Shown in pieces: positions 5,343 to 52,179 of a stretch of 64,000 nt of DNA. The notes beneath the pieces are model-generated. The model saw only the letters and a program-made list of their open reading frames with translations, was not told where the DNA came from and did no database searches. The position numbers were made by a program, and so were the translations under genes. Numbering within the stretch: position 1 is the first letter of the stretch; every line of letters begins with the position of its first letter. The stretch spans positions 540,001-604,000 of the forward strand of contig NZ_CP026363.1 in NCBI RefSeq assembly GCF_004117055.1. Direction: 5' to 3'. The stretch is from Brevibacillus agri (GTDB lineage: Bacteria > Bacillota > Bacilli > Brevibacillales > Brevibacillaceae).

Positions 5343-6704
5343 TTAATGGTTTGCTTTTAACTTTTCAATGAGCGACTGAATCGTAGTCTGCATCTGCGGG
5401 TCGCTTGCCAGCGCCCGAGAGATTTTTTCGTGTGCGTGAATGACGGTCGTATGGTCGCGTCCGCCAAATTCGTCCCCGATTTTCGGCAAAGAGGCATCTG
5501 TCAGCTCGCGAGACAAATACATGGCAATTTGCCGCGGAAAAGCGACGGTTTTGGTTCGCTTTTTCGCCTTGAAGTCTTCCAGCTTGAGGCTAAAGGCTTC
5601 TCCGACTGCGCGCTGGATGTCCATGATCGTAATGACGCGAGGGCGAGAAGACGGAATGATGTCTTTCAGCGCTTCAGCGGCCAACTGCGTATCAATGTCG
5701 CGATTAATCAGCGAAGAGTAAGCCACGACGCGGATCAGGGCGCCTTCCAGCTCGCGGATGTTGCTGTCGATCTGGTTCGCGATGTACGCCATTACCTCAT
5801 TCGGGATGTCGAGATTCTCAGCTTTTGCCTTTTTGCGCAAAATGGCAATCCGCGTTTCCAAATCTGGCGGCTGAATGTCGGTAATGAGTCCCCATTCAAA
5901 GCGGGAGCGCAGACGATCCTCCAGAGTCGGAATCTCCTTGGGAGGCCGGTCAGAGGAGATAATGATCTGCTTGCTTTCTTCGTGCAGGGCATTAAACGTA
6001 TGGAAAAACTCTTCCTGCGTCGATTCCTTGCCTGCCAAAAACTGAATATCATCAATTAAAAGAACGTCTACACTCCGGTACTTATTGCGGAATTCGACGG
6101 CCTTGTTGTCGCGAATAGAGTTGATGAATTCATTGGTGAACTTCTCTGACGACAAATAGACCACTTTCGCCGATGGATTGTGTTGAATGACATAATGGCC
6201 AATTGCGTGCATCAAGTGGGTTTTGCCAAGTCCGACTCCTCCGTAAATGAAGAGAGGATTGTAAGCTTTAGCAGGAGCTTCAGCGACCGCAAGCGAAGCG
6301 GCGTGAGCGAATCGGTTCCCGGCACCGATGACGAAGGTGTCAAAGGTGTACTTGGGATTTAAAATGCTGGGTGGCTGGTCATCCGCTGCTGAGGGCGGAG
6401 CGCTCATTTTCACCCGCGGGGCTGGTTGTTCTTCGGCAAATGCGGCGTCCTGATTTTGCAGGGCGACGAATTTTACCTTCATATTGATACCTGTCACTTC
6501 ATATAGTGTATCGGTAATCAGTTGAGCGTACCTGGTTTCAAGCCAATCCCTCGCAAAGTCGTTGGGCGCGACGACGATCAGTGCATCTTCTTCCAAGGTT
6601 GTTGCTCTCGTCGCTTTGAGCCAGGTATCAAAACTTGGTTTGCTTAGCGATTTTTCTATCTTGGCGAGAACTTTGCGCCATAGTTCGCTAATCGCTGCAT
6701 CCAA
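5343..6704 (-). CDS. dnaA: chromosomal replication initiator DnaA
   Basis: DnaA is the AAA+ ATPase that binds DnaA boxes and melts the origin. I choose TTG at 6704 ([20 protein letters not shown]) because AAGGAGG sits 8 nt upstream and it aligns with known DnaA N-termini. This gives 453 aa. Visible parts are domain I with FDTWLKAT, Walker [10 protein letters not shown], Walker [10 protein letters not shown] and the DNA-binding signature [15 protein letters not shown]. The upstream minus strand has a good -35 TTGACA (6804-6799) but no clear -10. DnaA boxes on both sides suggest autoregulation. Confidence 0.98.
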
Positions 6705-7170
6705 CCAGAATCCCTCCTTTTGGGCCGTCCGAAAAATAAAATCACCGATAAGAAACAAACGATAGCAATTGCAAAAAACCTCATATGTGTGACCCAATTG
6801 TCAACACGGTCGTTTACAGCGACTGTGGATAAAAAAAGTCGAAAAATAGGGATTCCGCTCGTAGAAGAGAAAAAAAGCAGACGGTTATCCGCATCCCTGT
6901 GAGTAACGACATACACATAGGAAGGAATCTGTCCACAAACTTATCCACACCCTGTGGAAAAACCGATTAGCCTATCGGAGTTATTCACGCTTCAAAACAA
7001 AAACATAATAACAGATATAAGGCATGGCATCAATGGTTTTTTCATACTTATCCACAAACACAACCACTGGTACCAGGCACATATTCACATATCTATATTT
7101 TGTGTACAAGCTGTAGATAAACTTGTCGAAATCTGCTTTTGTGGATAAGATGATATCCACAGATCCGGGA
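6705..7170. other. oriC, dnaA-upstream DnaA-box cluster
   Basis: The gap between divergent dnaA and rpmH has perfect DnaA boxes at 6824-6832, 6941-6949, 7048-7056 and 7140-7148. One-mismatch boxes are at 6885, 6953, 6981, 7081, 7101, 7112 and 7153. Both orientations occur. With the dnaA-dnaN cluster this gives a bipartite origin that loops across dnaA, as in B. subtilis. Confidence 0.93.
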
Positions 7171-27179: not shown

Positions 27180-27389
27180 ATGGAAAGGAAGCAATTTGGG
27201 CTGGGGGACATCGTACAAATGAAAAAGCCGCATCCATGCGGAACAAATGCGTGGAAAGTCATTCGCATGGGCATGGACGTGCGAATCAAATGTACGGGCT
27301 GCGACCACAGTGTCATGATCGGTCGTCTTGAATTTGAACGCAAACTGAAAAAAATATTGGTGCGCGCAGAGGAAGAGCCGAAAGAGTAA
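27180..27389 (+). CDS. DUF951 domain protein
   Basis: A 69-aa protein of the DUF951 family: FGLGDIVQMKKPHPCGTNAWKVIRMGMDVRIKCTGCDHSVMI. The Cys residues (PCG and CTGC) and small size suggest a metal or nucleic-acid binding fold, function unknown. It lies upstream of ychF in many Firmicutes; here two secreted proteins separate them. ATG 27180 follows GGGGAGAAGAG. Confidence 0.9.
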   Translation: MERKQFGLGDIVQMKKPHPCGTNAWKVIRMGMDVRIKCTGCDHSVMIGRLEFERKLKKILVRAEEEPKE

Positions 27390-27494: not shown

Positions 27495-28271
27495 ATGAGT
27501 GCCAGACGGTTGTGGATGCAATGGATCGCTGTGCTGGGGATGCTGCTTGCGTTTTCACAGGCGGCATGGGCGAAGGACGCAAGCAACTGGAAGATAAGCG
27601 TCTCGCCGACGGACAAAGCGACAGAGGTAGCAGCAGACGCTGTCATTACGCTGACGTTTTCCGGGACGGTCCGTTTGGCAAATTCGCGTGACATCACGGA
27701 CAAGTCGTTGCTGTCCATCGTGCAGCTTGGGGACGAAAAGAAAAAGAAAGTCCCGTTCACAGCCAAGTGGAACAAGACAGCGAGAAGCATCGTGATCGAC
27801 CCTGTGGGTAACCTGGAGGCGGGAAAAGCGTATCGCGTCACACTGCCCGCCAAAAAGCTGAAGGATGCGCGAGGGGAGCTGAACCCGGAGCTGTCCGCTG
27901 CGTTCACGACAAAAAAGCCCGTGGATAACATTGCTCCGCAGGCGATTATTTTGCCTGGTCATGGCGCCAAGCAGGTGAAGCTGGAGGAGAAAGTGACGCT
28001 GCAGTTTGCGGAGGAAGTGACTCTGGCAAGCGGAGGAGCACTCTCCAGCAAAACGGCGGCAGGACTTGTGCGCTTGACAGATGAAAAAGGCCAGGCTGTC
28101 CCGCATACCGTCACCTGGAACAAGAGCAAGCGAATGCTGTCGATCAAGCCAAAAGGAAAATGGCAGCCGCATACGAGCTATCAGGTCAGTCTCGCTGGCG
28201 GCCTGCTGCAAGATCAGGCGGGCAATGTGAATAAGTCACAATGGTCGAGTTTCACGAGTGGCGCGAAGTAA
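27495..28271 (+). CDS. secreted protein with two Ig-like (Big_5) domains
   Basis: A 258-aa protein with a signal peptide (RRLWMQWIAVLGMLLAFSQAAWA, cut near residue 24) followed by two repeats of a bacterial Ig-like Big_5 module: VSPTDKATEVAADAVITLTFSGTV about 33-56, and LPGHGAKQVKLEEKVTLQFAEEV about 154-176, each ending with a YRVTLP or YQVSLA strand. Such modules are found in surface and S-layer proteins. There is no anchor. ATG 27495 is preferred over 27486 by ribosome-site distance. Confidence 0.8.
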   Translation: MSARRLWMQWIAVLGMLLAFSQAAWAKDASNWKISVSPTDKATEVAADAVITLTFSGTVRLANSRDITDKSLLSIVQLGDEKKKKVPFTAKWNKTARSIVIDPVGNLEAGKAYRVTLPAKKLKDARGELNPELSAAFTTKKPVDNIAPQAIILPGHGAKQVKLEEKVTLQFAEEVTLASGGALSSKTAAGLVRLTDEKGQAVPHTVTWNKSKRMLSIKPKGKWQPHTSYQVSLAGGLLQDQAGNVNKSQWSSFTSGAK

Positions 28272-28293
28272 TGGAAGTTTGGTTGTGGATAAA

Positions 28294-28338
28294 AAAAGGA
28301 TGCAACCCGTAGCAAGCGGCGCATCCTTTTTTCCTTTT
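28294..28338. terminator. bidirectional terminator after the Ig-like gene
   Basis: A perfect 10-bp stem AAAAGGATGC (28294-28303) / GCATCCTTTT (28321-28330) with T-runs on the plus side and A-runs before it, so it can work both ways. A perfect DnaA box TGTGGATAA overlaps its left edge at 28284-28292. Confidence 0.88.
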
Positions 28339-28497
28339 TGTACGATCAGATGTATCTCCCGGTGATTGTACTTTAAGGTTATGACCGATCATTTTCCGTC
28401 GGCTGCGTAGCCAGTCAATGATCTATGTGGAATGGGGAAGGTAAGATGCATGGTCGTGCAAGCTTACCTTCAGATAGGCCGGATGGCAGCGGGAAGC

Positions 28498-28584
28498 TTA
28501 GTCGCAGTCACAACCTACGATTACGAGAAGGATGAAAAGAACCAGGATCAGCGCGAAATCGTCGAAGCCGTTAAAGAGACCCAC
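28498..28584 (-). CDS. YjcZ-like sporulation peptide
   Basis: A 28-aa minus-strand gene: MGLFNGFDDFALILVLFILLVIVG then CDCD. The FALILVLFILLVIVG core is the hallmark of the YjcZ family, tiny hydrophobic proteins of Bacillales spores, and the Gly-Phe start fits. GGAGGT lies 8 nt before the GTG start at 28584. The hairpin GAAGGTAAG / CTTACCTTC at 28437-28471 lies downstream and may be its 3' end. The C-terminus is unusually acidic. The overlapping plus-strand frame is not convincing. Confidence 0.75.
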   Translation of the reverse strand: MGLFNGFDDFALILVLFILLVIVGCDCD

Positions 28585-28677
28585 TTGCTAACACCTCCTA
28601 CCCTAGTTTCAATACTCATGCTATGTAGGAACATGAAAATGGGTATGGGCGAATGCCCTGGTTCCGACGAAAATAAG

Positions 28678-28795
28678 TTATTCACACTCTATCCACAGAA
28701 AATGTGGACAACTTTTTGTCGAAAAATGCAAAACGGAAAAGGGGGTTGGGAATAAACAAGCTGTGGATAGACAGTTATCCACAAAATTATCCACA
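28678..28795. promoter_or_regulatory. DnaA-box cluster upstream of pepF
   Basis: Within 118 bp there are three perfect boxes (TTATTCACA 28678-28686, TTATCCACA 28775-28783 and 28787-28795). Three more have one mismatch (28689-28697, 28703-28711, 28762-28770). A further perfect box lies at 28284-28292. The cluster ends 23 bp before the -35 of the pepF promoter. It may titrate DnaA or regulate the gene. Confidence 0.8.
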
Positions 28796-28818
28796 AATCT
28801 GAATTTTCTCTGGATAAA

Positions 28819-28846
28819 TTGACTGTTGTTAGTAAATATTTAAAAT
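28819..28846 (+). promoter_or_regulatory. sigma-A promoter of the secreted oligopeptidase
   Basis: TTGACT (28819-28824), 16-bp spacer, TAAAAT (28841-28846), about 100 bp before the start codon and directly behind the DnaA-box cluster. Confidence 0.7.
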
Positions 28847-28944
28847 ATTTTTCTTAATAAGAAGGAATTTGGACGTGCAACAACGTAATTACACTAACTA
28901 GAAATTGGAAAAGATAAAGAGTAAGGAAAAGGGGCGATTGAGAT

Positions 28945-30855
28945 TTGAAAAAGCAAGTGTTTGCATCAGTTACAGCTTTGGCTATTGCGTTTTCGGCCGT
29001 ATCGGTACCATTTATTCCGTACAGCACGCCGGCAGTCGCTTTTGCTGCGGAAAAGCCAAATTATCAGACCCGCGCTGAAATTCCAGACCAATATAAGTGG
29101 AAACTGAATCATATTTACCCGACTGTTCAGGATTGGGAAAAAGACGTAGTCAAGGTGGAGGCTTTGGCGAATGCTTTTACCAAGCACCAGGGCAAGCTGG
29201 GGACTTCTGCTGCGGCGATGCTCGCTGCTTTCGATGATTACGTGGACATGATGCGGCTCAACGACAAGGCGTATGTGTACGCCAACATGTCGCTGGACGT
29301 AAACTCGGCCAACTCTGAGCTGCAGAAGCTGGCAGACCGCGCCGAGAAAATGTACACGCTTGTTTCGGAAAAAACGGCATGGCTCCAGCCAGAAATCGTT
29401 GCCATTCCGGATGAGAAAATGAAGAGCTTGCTCGCTGACAAGTCTTTGGCGCCGTACAAGCTTTTCATTGAGGACATGCTGAGAACCAAGCCGCATTCGC
29501 TCTCCACAGAGATGGAGGAGCTGCTGGCAAAATCCTCTCCGCTGGGCAATGCGCCAACCAACATTTACAGCATGCTGTCCAAAGATGTGAAGTTCCCGAA
29601 AATCAAGGATGAGCAAGGCAAGGAAGTCCAACTGACGCGTGCCAACTTCATTTCGTATATGGAAAGCAAGGACCAGCGTGTGAGAAGGGATGCTTTCAAG
29701 GCATACTACAGCGCCTTGATTGACTTCCAGGATTCGTTCGCACAGACACTGGCAGCAAAAGTGAAGGCAGACAATTTCTACGCGCAGGCACGCAACTACA
29801 ACTCTGCGCTGGAAGCGAGCCTGACGCCGAACAACATCCCGACCAAGGTGTACGATGAGCTGATCGACACGGTCAACGACAACTTGCCGCTGCTGCACCG
29901 CTATATTGCCTTGAAGAAAAAAATGCTCGGAGTGAAGGAGCTGCACATGTACGACATCTATGTGCCGATCGTTCCATCCGACGACAAATACATTTCCTTC
30001 GAGGAAGGAAAAAAAATCGTCGCCGACGGATTGAAAGCCATGGGCGACGATTACGTGAAAGTGCTGGCGGAAGGACTGGATGGCGGCTGGGTAGATGTCT
30101 ATTCCACCGACGACAAACGCACCGGCGCTTACCAGTGGGGAGCCTACGATACGCATCCGTACGTGCTTTTGAACTATCAGGGCACGCTCGATGACGTGTA
30201 CACGATCGCCCACGAGATGGGCCATGCGATGCAGTCGTACTACACGAACAAGAATCAGCCGTACATTTCGTCCAACTATCCGACCTTTACGGCGGAAGTG
30301 GCTTCCACGATGAATGAGACGTTGCTGTTCAAGAGCATGTACGCGCAGGCGAAGACGAAGGAAGAGAAAATGTATCTCCTGAACCACTACCTGGAGAACT
30401 TCCGCTCGACCTTGTTCCGCCAAACGCAATTTGCCGAGTTTGAAAAAGCCATTCACGACAAGGAGCAGGCAGGAGAATCGCTCAACGCCGAGGCGATCAA
30501 AAAAATCTACCTCGACATCAACAAAAAGTACTACGGCAAAGACATGGTTTCCGACGAGGAAATCGCGATGGAGTGGGCGCGCGTTTCCCATTTCTTCAAC
30601 TATAAGTACTACGTGTACCAATACTCTACGAGCTTTGCGGCGTCCCAGGCGCTGGCGAAACAAATCCTGGATGAAGGACAGCCGGCAGTTGACCGCATCC
30701 GCAAAAACTTCCTTGAAGCGGGTAACTCTGCTCCGCCAATCGAGGTGCTGAAGGCAGCGGGCGTAGACATGTCTACATCGAAGCCGATCGAGCAGGCTAT
30801 GGAGATTTTTGAAGAGACTTTGAATGAGCTGGAAAAACTGGTGAACGAAAAGTAA
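28945..30855 (+). CDS. secreted M3B oligoendopeptidase F-like protease
   Basis: A 636-aa zinc peptidase of family M3B (PepF/oligoendopeptidase F). The active-site HEMGH is in TIAHEMGHAMQSYY at about residues 427-440, with a downstream glutamate in FTAEVASTMNE. It cleaves short peptides. Unlike ordinary cytosolic PepF it has an N-terminal signal peptide (KKQVFASVTALAIAFSAVS ... AVAFA) predicted to be cut near residue 34, so it probably acts outside the cell. TTG start 28945 follows AAGGGGCG. It has its own promoter, with DnaA boxes upstream, and a terminator. Confidence 0.93.
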   Translation: MKKQVFASVTALAIAFSAVSVPFIPYSTPAVAFAAEKPNYQTRAEIPDQYKWKLNHIYPTVQDWEKDVVKVEALANAFTKHQGKLGTSAAAMLAAFDDYVDMMRLNDKAYVYANMSLDVNSANSELQKLADRAEKMYTLVSEKTAWLQPEIVAIPDEKMKSLLADKSLAPYKLFIEDMLRTKPHSLSTEMEELLAKSSPLGNAPTNIYSMLSKDVKFPKIKDEQGKEVQLTRANFISYMESKDQRVRRDAFKAYYSALIDFQDSFAQTLAAKVKADNFYAQARNYNSALEASLTPNNIPTKVYDELIDTVNDNLPLLHRYIALKKKMLGVKELHMYDIYVPIVPSDDKYISFEEGKKIVADGLKAMGDDYVKVLAEGLDGGWVDVYSTDDKRTGAYQWGAYDTHPYVLLNYQGTLDDVYTIAHEMGHAMQSYYTNKNQPYISSNYPTFTAEVASTMNETLLFKSMYAQAKTKEEKMYLLNHYLENFRSTLFRQTQFAEFEKAIHDKEQAGESLNAEAIKKIYLDINKKYYGKDMVSDEEIAMEWARVSHFFNYKYYVYQYSTSFAASQALAKQILDEGQPAVDRIRKNFLEAGNSAPPIEVLKAAGVDMSTSKPIEQAMEIFEETLNELEKLVNEK

Positions 30856-32345: not shown

Positions 32346-33446
32346 ATGGGTGCATCTTGCGGTATTGTTGGGCTTCCCAACGTGGGGAAATCAACACTGT
32401 TCAATGCCATTACACAAGCGGGTGCGGAGTCGGCGAACTACCCGTTCTGTACGATTGACCCGAACGTGGGGATCGTAGAAGTTCCGGATCCGCGTCTCAC
32501 AAAGCTGACAGAGATCGTAGTGCCGAACAAAGTCGTTCCGACGGCATTTGAGTTCGTGGACATTGCCGGCCTGGTAAAAGGCGCGAGCAAAGGCGAGGGG
32601 CTTGGCAACCAGTTCCTCGGACATATCCGGGAAGTAGACGCGATCGCGCATGTCGTTCGCTGCTTCGAGGATGAAAACATCACGCACGTGGCAGGCCGTG
32701 TCGATCCACTGAGCGATATCGAAACGATCAATCTGGAGCTGATTTTTGCCGATCTGGATTCAGTCGAGCGCCGTATCGACCGTATCGCGCGCAAGGTGAA
32801 ATCCGGCGACAAGGAGTCCAAGCAGGAGTTGGACGTGCTGGAAAAACTGAAGGCTGCATTCGAAGAAGGCCAGTCCGCGCGCAGCGTGGAGTTGGACGAC
32901 GAAGAGCGCAAATGGATTCGCGACCTGCACCTTTTGACGATCAAGCCGATGCTGTACGTGTGCAACGTGGCAGAGGACGGAATCAATGACGCAGACAACA
33001 ATCCTCACGTGCAGGCTGTTCGCGAGCATGCGGCGAAGGAAGGAGCAGAGGTCGTTGTCATCAGCGCCAAGGTCGAGGCAGAAATTGCTGAACTGGAAGG
33101 CGAAGACAAAGAAATGTTCCTGCAAGAGCTTGGTTTGGCCGAGTCCGGTCTGGACCGCCTGATTCGCGCTGCTTACAAGCTGCTCGGTCTGGTTACCTAC
33201 TTTACGGCAGGGGTACAGGAAGTGCGCGCGTGGACCATTCGCAAGGGCACAAAGGCTCCAGGTGCGGCAGGCGTGATTCATACCGATTTCGAGCGCGGCT
33301 TTATTCGCGCAGAGGTTATTGCTTACGACGACCTGGTAGATGCTGGATCGGTTGCGGCAGCCAGAGAGCGCGGGAAGTACCGTCTTGAAGGGAAAGAGTA
33401 CGTTGTGGCTGACGGAGATGTCATGCATTTCCGCTTCAATGTTTAG
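32346..33446 (+). CDS. ychF: redox-regulated ribosome-binding ATPase YchF
   Basis: An Obg-family P-loop ATPase of 366 aa that binds ribosomes and affects stress responses. It has G1 [15 protein letters not shown] (9-23), [13 protein letters not shown], the G3-like [10 protein letters not shown], the YchF-specific NVAE in place of NKxD (explaining ATP preference), and a C-terminal TGS-like domain ([30 protein letters not shown]). It lies upstream of rpsF, as in many Firmicutes, but with its own promoter. Confidence 0.97.
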
Positions 33447-51699: not shown

Positions 51700-52179
51700 G
51701 TGCAAATTTCGATTATCACCGTAGGCAAGCTGAAAGAAAAGTATTTGCGCGAGGGCATCGACGAGTACAGCAAGCGCCTGTCTGCCTACTGCAAACTGCA
51801 AGTAATCGAGGTCAACGACGAAAAAGCCCCGGAAGAAATGAGCGCGGCCGAAATGGAGCAGGTAAAGCGCAAGGAAGGCGAGCGCATCCTCGCGCAGATC
51901 AAACAGGACCAGTATGTGATCGCACTTGCGATCGAGGGGCAGATGTGGTCGTCGGAAAAGCTGTCGGCGGAGCTGGACAGGCTGGCGCTGCACGGGCGCA
52001 GCCAGGTGGCGTTCGTAATCGGCGGATCGCTCGGGCTGGCAGACACGGTGCTGAAGCGGGCGGATGCGCTGTTGTCTTTTTCGAAGATGACGTTTCCGCA
52101 TCAGTTGGTGCGGTTGGTGTTGTTGGAGCAGGTTTATCGGGGGTTTCGGATTAGTCGGGGGGAACCGTATCACAAGTAG
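51700..52179 (+). CDS. rlmH: 23S rRNA (pseudouridine1915-N3)-methyltransferase RlmH
   Basis: RlmH (SPOUT family, OrfX in staphylococci) methylates pseudouridine 1915 of 23S rRNA. The 159-aa protein has [21 protein letters not shown] at the start, the knot region [16 protein letters not shown], and ends [14 protein letters not shown] start 51700. In staphylococci the last codons hold the SCC integration site. Here too, the base composition changes sharply directly after this gene. Confidence 0.97.
52162..52179 (+). other. candidate attachment site at the rlmH 3' end
   Basis: GAACCGTATCACAAGTAG encodes EPYHK-stop. It aligns with the SCC att core in the last codons of staphylococcal rlmH (GAAGC.TATCA.AA.). 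All DNA downstream to the window end looks accessory. No second copy is visible within the window, so use as an att site is inferred. Confidence 0.35.

Follow-up and report, generated by a model that had tools for sequence, protein, structure and literature searches.

Deletion of six DnaA-box clusters located outside oriC leads to early initiation of replication in Bacillus subtilis (PMC5295017; PMC13220808), and a cluster moved from oriC to terC has a weaker effect (PMC5010248), while the role of single clusters was doubted (PMC5295017, PMC13220808). The DnaA-box consensus of this organism is TTATNCACA (PMC4447404). In Escherichia coli DnaA boxes accumulate near the origin (PMC12371093), and a model for this organism predicts that fast-growing cells would be protected from re-initiation only by titration sites placed close to the origin (PMC9640692). 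E. coli also has datA and the DARS elements, the latter defined by three boxes with box I opposite to boxes II and III (PMC5742627). According to a 2026 review, datA and DARS are absent from B. subtilis, and it is not known whether this organism regulates the balance between ADP- and ATP-DnaA at all (PMC13220808). Our literature search found no paper on Brevibacillus DnaA boxes, and among the matches listed there was no DARS site from Firmicutes.

The window, i.e. the whole stretch of 64,000 nucleotides analysed here, comprises bases 540001-604000 of the 5.37-Mb one-contig genome of Brevibacillus agri and includes dnaA (ORF 5343-6797, minus strand, TIGR00362). The region upstream of dnaA contains the DnaA boxes of one half of oriC (6824-7161). 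At a distance of about 21.5 kb from these, seven DnaA boxes with at most one mismatch to TTATCCACA are arrayed at 28678-28817. They lie in a 360-bp gap between a YjcZ-family sporulation gene of 28 amino acids (28498-28584, minus strand, TIGR01732 above cut-off) and the divergent pepF (28945-30855, plus strand), which encodes an oligoendopeptidase F of peptidase family M3 (TIGR00181, PF01432/PF08439), secreted according to a signal peptide judged by eye. The DUF951 gene (27180-27389, plus strand) is the left border of the locus throughout the family and ychF (32346-33446, plus strand) the right border in most of it; in G004 ychF is found 64 kb from the locus, and G024 and G036 have DUF951 and ychF on separate contigs. 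Boxes A (28678-28686, TTATTCACA) and B (28689-28697, CTATCCACA) are on the plus strand and box C (28703-28711, TTGTCCACA) on the minus strand, B and C being arranged head to head with the 5-bp spacer GAAAA between them. This triplet A-B-C (28678-28711) has a near-DARS geometry, in which A, B and C are the counterparts of the DARS-core boxes III, II and I, respectively. A filler (28712-28774) that includes box D (28762-28770, minus strand, CTATCCACA) separates the triplet from the plus-strand boxes E (28775-28783) and F (28787-28795), both TTATCCACA, with F starting 12 bp after E. An earlier note on this DNA had counted three perfect and three near-perfect boxes in 118 bp, 23 bp ahead of a sigma-A -35. 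Count and extent both proved correct with TTATNCACA as consensus: the boxes at 28678, 28775 and 28787 are perfect, those at 28689, 28703 and 28762 deviate at one position each, and together they span 28678-28795, ending 23 bp ahead of a TTGACT at 28819. With strict TTATCCACA as the standard just two boxes are perfect. Absent from that count was the seventh box, G (TTATCCAGA, 28809-28817, minus strand), located 1 bp ahead of the -35-like TTGACT.

The comparison with shuffled sequences confirms the proposal of a real DnaA-box cluster outside oriC. While 28600-28944 (345 bp) contains seven boxes with at most one mismatch, 2,000 composition-matched shuffles averaged 0.13 boxes and never exceeded two, so that none of the 2,000 reached seven. 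When 64-kb windows were shuffled (60 in all), no 150-bp stretch had more than two boxes. The array is the densest 150-bp box stretch of the window and exceeds the oriC half beside dnaA (4 per 150 bp).

A protein search yielded 80 peptidase loci, 21 of which are named members of the Brevibacillus family (L031-L049, L058 and L059, with L040 recorded as Anoxybacillus sediminis). At least four boxes within 200 bp were present upstream of the peptidase in 20 of these 21 loci, L046 being the one without such a group. A sample of the family and order comprised 39 whole genomes of seven genera, for which the family name was inferred from the named loci. Since 20 of the 21 named loci share peptidase DNA with the 39 genomes, the counts for loci and genomes overlap and are not independent of each other. 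Three to seven boxes lie within a 200-bp stretch of the locus in all 39 family genomes, so that the conservation among close relatives, which the earlier note had named as a check, was found. The count is five to seven in 26/26 genomes of the same genus, and three to six in 12 of the 13 genomes of other genera, with seven in the remaining one; the fewest, three boxes at one mismatch, occur in G028, G030 and G035. The distance between array and dnaA is about 14-23 kb in the 31 of 39 genomes with both on one contig, as calculated by hand and with a circular contig assumed for nine genomes. Over the 26 genomes of the genus, box columns have a mean identity of 0.89 vs 0.68 for the rest of 28670-28824, and when the box mask was shifted cyclically, none of the 154 shifted versions was as good, although the best came close (0.885). 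Mean column identity in these genomes is highest for C (0.99), E (0.98), G (0.97, kept within the genus), F (0.95) and A (0.93), followed by B (0.88), which is present with at most two mismatches in 33/39 family genomes, and D (0.53), the place of which is not conserved. An additional perfect box reported before, 28284-28292 on the minus strand, does exist; it recurs perfectly at the same offset in two of the 21 named family loci (L031, L032) and with one mismatch near this offset in three (L036, L044, L058). As this isolated box is rarely kept in the 21 named loci, it was left out of the array. It adjoins a terminator-like hairpin, judged by eye and absent from the computed listing.

Outside the family, 20 loci of related Bacilli were considered, of which three were dropped because DUF951 was missing. 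In 17/17 of the loci with DUF951 and ychF there are at most two boxes per 200 bp between these genes and hence no cluster. In nine of the 17, other parts of the same stretch reach four to six boxes per 200 bp, thus the method can detect clusters there. Judging from these sequence comparisons, the array is anchored at one locus, from DUF951 towards ychF and near oriC.

The spacing of the boxes is nearly rigid. A search for the core C-E-F with at most two mismatches, allowing 11-13 bp for E-F and 69-77 bp for C-E, identified this core in 36/39 family genomes, and it was not found within these limits in G010, G035 and G036. E-F is 12 bp in 36/36. From start to start, C-E is 70-74 bp in the 36 genomes and 72 bp in 26 of them, including the B. 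agri window; A-C is 25 bp in 34/36 and B-C 14 bp in 27, with B missing in six. Since the sequence of the C-to-E filler is poorly conserved and its length nearly constant, it is the length that is kept and not the sequence. In 71 outgroup loci, 1.4 Mb of sequence in total, the core with one mismatch was not found. The exact C-E-F pattern occurs in 24 of 36 family genomes, once each and always at the array locus, and outside the family in 11/362 genomes, ten of which belong to one genus. Three of these ten were fetched and have the C-E-F place directly after dnaA and before dnaN; for the eleventh, G307, neither dnaA nor dnaN was found in the 3.5 kb fetched. The presence of the pattern in non-family genomes means that the spacing is not unique to the array locus. 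Such a fixed arrangement would fit DnaA assembling into an ordered complex better than loose titration alone.

The earlier note had also suggested that the array would link the functions of the secreted peptidase and the YjcZ-like gene to the state of replication. This did not hold, as the array persists with the peptidase absent (G026) or located elsewhere (G036). No secreted peptidase was found in G026 at E <= 1e-100; its sole match (47%) lies elsewhere and is of the kind present as a second copy in other genomes, and five boxes are kept in a 464-bp gap between DUF951 and ychF. In G036 the peptidase has moved and has one box in about 500 bp upstream, and four boxes are still present at the DUF951 locus, which lies at the end of a contig; the moved copy is the same peptidase copy as L046. 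A second peptidase copy of G034 (71%) lies elsewhere without any box in about 500 bp, and the copy at the locus (53%) has seven. Eleven peptidase paralogues have zero or one box in about 500 bp upstream. For eight orthologues from Aneurinibacillus, Bacillus and Peribacillus the number is zero to two in the six with a full 1 kb upstream, and zero or one in the remaining two with just 155-198 bp. The flanking genes were not found beside these eight orthologues in the stretches examined, except for a weak yjcZ-like match in L052. Since relatives keep the array where the neighbouring peptidase is missing, it probably regulates the start of replication and not that gene; a peptidase-specific regulation is contradicted by G026, G036 and G034.

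We propose, with reasonable though not high confidence, that the array is an oriC-proximal, position-anchored counterpart of the B. subtilis clusters in the Brevibacillus family, which limits the amount of free DnaA. DnaA would bind cooperatively to A-B-C and to E-F(-G) as two sub-assemblies, with a constant separation of about seven helical turns between them. Because the array adjoins oriC, it would be copied very early in the round, the high-affinity DnaA sites would double just after initiation, and the resulting decrease of free DnaA would guard against early re-initiation. The array may represent a natural case of titration near the origin, the only placement at which re-initiation in fast growth would be prevented according to the E. 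coli model (PMC9640692). Plain titration, however, requires no fixed spacing and leaves the geometry unexplained. Tenfold overproduction of DnaA without over-initiation in B. subtilis likewise speaks against simple titration (PMC13220808).

A control of transcription similar to that at ywlC, vpr and sda of B. subtilis, in which DnaA on the array would repress or tune pepF, the divergent yjcZ or both, appears unlikely to us. B. subtilis DnaA does activate sda and apparently represses vpr and ywlC (PMC4447404), box G is only 1 bp from a -35-like hexamer and the distance from the array to pepF is steady within the genus, but this distance varies in other genera, the array is present without the peptidase and peptidase copies elsewhere are without the array. 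Furthermore, the -35 itself is not conserved in an alignment of 22 sequences, and columns 28820-28825, 1 bp off the hexamer at 28819-28824, average 0.71 identity over the 26 genomes. The sigma-A promoter assumed before (TTGACT-16-TAAAAT, 28819-28846, plus strand) turned out to be a weak candidate, since two such sites were found in 28250-28960 vs 1.5 expected by chance. At 28859-28893 a conserved AAGGAATTT is followed 12-13 bp on by a TATAAT/TAATTA-like element ahead of pepF; this is the better conserved promoter candidate, and it is perhaps SigH-like. As box G abuts the -35-like hexamer, a side effect of the array on the pepF and yjcZ promoters may occur. A secondary or vestigial replication origin would account for the array next to an AT-rich stretch (28820-28860) and for the C-E-F-like spacing that another genus of Bacilli has between dnaA and dnaN, yet we regard it as highly improbable. 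Reading by eye, the dnaA-dnaN gap of B. agri has GGCCC and then TATTACTACTTCT, whereas no GC strip with a CTACTTCT-like DnaA-trio follows E-F. Moreover, in G026, which has no pepF, the about 80 bp after E-F are not AT-rich (57-60% A+T), and an AT-rich stretch lies further on. With neither trio nor GC strip beside the boxes, a secondary origin was rejected.

The geometry of the triplet A-B-C unexpectedly resembles that of DARS. A DARS-like element, in which the head-to-head pair C-B together with A would assemble ADP-DnaA like the E. coli boxes I-II-III and promote the release of ADP, so that ATP-DnaA would be generated and DnaA not just stored, is nevertheless a doubtful assignment. Read on the minus strand, C, B and A lie at 0(+), +14(-) and +25(-), and the E. 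coli DARS1 and DARS2 cores at 0(+), +14(-) and +26(-). The DARS2 core was placed by published deletion primers (PMC4585315), the arms of which (286-332 and from 371 of L210) leave exactly 333-370 with the core at 336-370 inside; the DARS1 arms bracket its core (208-242 of L222) more widely (PMC4585315). The DARS2 core reads TTCTTCACA ACT CTATCCACA GAAAA GGTGAATAA and the window triplet TTATTCACA CT CTATCCACA GAAAA TGTGGACAA, and the two are identical at 30/34 positions with one gap. A blastn search with 28678-28711 against 5,426 E. coli genomes found 5,370 places in 5,369 genomes, of which the two annotated ones are both in the mutH-rppH gap, the home of DARS2, and four other box-rich 34-35-mers of the B. 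agri genome had no E. coli match. A match of 30/34 is exceptional in the B. agri genome only (null P 0.0006 with the geometry fixed), though; of the 30 triplets scored 19 reach 28 (P 0.03) and nine fewer, and the G001 triplet matches just 2/5,426 E. coli genomes, at coordinates shared with two window-triplet matches, and the G003 triplet none. The orientation of box I opposite to II and III was found in 33/39 genomes, 25 of these 33 having the B-C spacer GAAAA of DARS2 (chance about 0.004 by base composition), and the triplet pattern occurred in 23/398 Bacilli genomes, all of the family, with 0/362 among the others and no control match. The spacing II-III, on the other hand, is 11 and not 12 bp in 31/33 genomes (I-II and II-III are 14 and 11 in 30/33, 15 and 11 in one, and 13 and 12 in G002 and G025); since it thus deviates from the 14 and 12 bp of DARS1 and DARS2, the array was not filed as DARS. 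A search of 12 family genomes for a triplet with the exact E. coli II-III gap (one mismatch) yielded a single place, L227 (G036:C7:29602-29636), away from the array. Box B, which corresponds to box II of DARS2, is missing from six genomes (G026-G031), and the activity of DARS2 was described as crucially dependent on its boxes 1 and 2. DARS2 also requires IHF and Fis (PMC5742627), and B. subtilis is without IHF (PMC13220808). Since DARS1 moved beside oriC raises the origin number (PMC5010248), the position of the array fits titration or datA better. It is a tentative thought, and not a probable one, that the array holds a DARS-type core in a Gram-positive order, in which a GAAAA-spaced head-to-head pair and a third box would release ADP from DnaA, with a tandem DnaA pair attached at constant spacing; the resemblance, seen in the sequence, is a lead only. 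If true, the placement at oriC would let the origin copy number feed back on ATP-DnaA, and this would be, to our knowledge, the first chromosomal DnaA-recharging site outside Proteobacteria. A rigid array of near-DARS geometry throughout a family makes the question of the ADP-/ATP-DnaA balance testable in vitro in a Gram-positive organism.

Other DnaA-box groups of the B. agri genome were sought around perfect boxes only (45 places), a procedure that overlooks any cluster in which no box is perfect. Groups are present at trmE, at ywlC and beside tsaD, and these sites are DnaA-bound also in B. subtilis (PMC4447404); the array would extend this set, shared in part between the two organisms, by a member beside oriC. 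Four boxes lie at the start of ywlC/sua5 (PF01300; L020 1366-1521, about 987.8-988.0 kb of G000:C1), the same gene as in B. subtilis, and five, three of them perfect, downstream of tsaD (gcp; L122 661-988, about 5317.2-5317.5 kb), also shared with B. subtilis. With trmE, ywlC and tsaD, three tRNA-modification genes have DnaA boxes adjoining. For yydA, the counterpart is a single rlmH at window 51703-52173 with no box cluster nearby. Where a sulfatase gene is followed by a gene for a PF03601 membrane protein, another five boxes lie within about 160 bp around the gap that separates the two (L018 1395-1553, about 847.5 kb), for which the accessible literature on the B. subtilis clusters yielded no counterpart. 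Four boxes, of which two are perfect and abutting, were observed upstream of a gene for an amino-acid ABC solute-binding protein (L023 1475-1530, about 1093.3 kb), and two perfect inverted boxes directly 3' of a Spo0E-like gene (PF09388, a family of sporulation regulators; L021 1501-1521, G000:C1:1062443-1062463). L001, L029, L030, L111 and L120 have a common box pattern with intervals of 209, 24 and 117 bp (and 634 bp where the stretch reaches) and one perfect box each, and are probably copies of a mobile element with a DnaA box.

Among the known systems, the B. subtilis clusters (trmE, ywlC, gcp/tsaD, yydA, ywcI/vpr, yqeG/sda) likewise consist of several intergenic boxes and are in some cases near oriC. 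They differ from the array in that the accessible reports mention no cluster at DUF951-ychF and describe no rigid spacing throughout a family. E. coli datA is also a DnaA-box cluster towards oriC. With respect to the single direction of the essential datA boxes, A, B, E and F of the array share a direction, which C, D and G oppose; the datA intervals found, 67 and 162 bp, are unlike those of the array. Moreover, datA requires an IHF site (PMC5742627), and B. subtilis has no IHF (PMC13220808). With unlike intervals and no IHF expected, the array was not assigned to datA, although it may be related to it. From the core of E. coli DARS1 and DARS2 the array differs in the II-III distance of 11 instead of 12 bp, in having no known IHF/Fis module and in its place adjacent to oriC, while it shares with this core box I opposite to II and III, the I-II distance of 14 bp and, with DARS2, the spacer GAAAA.
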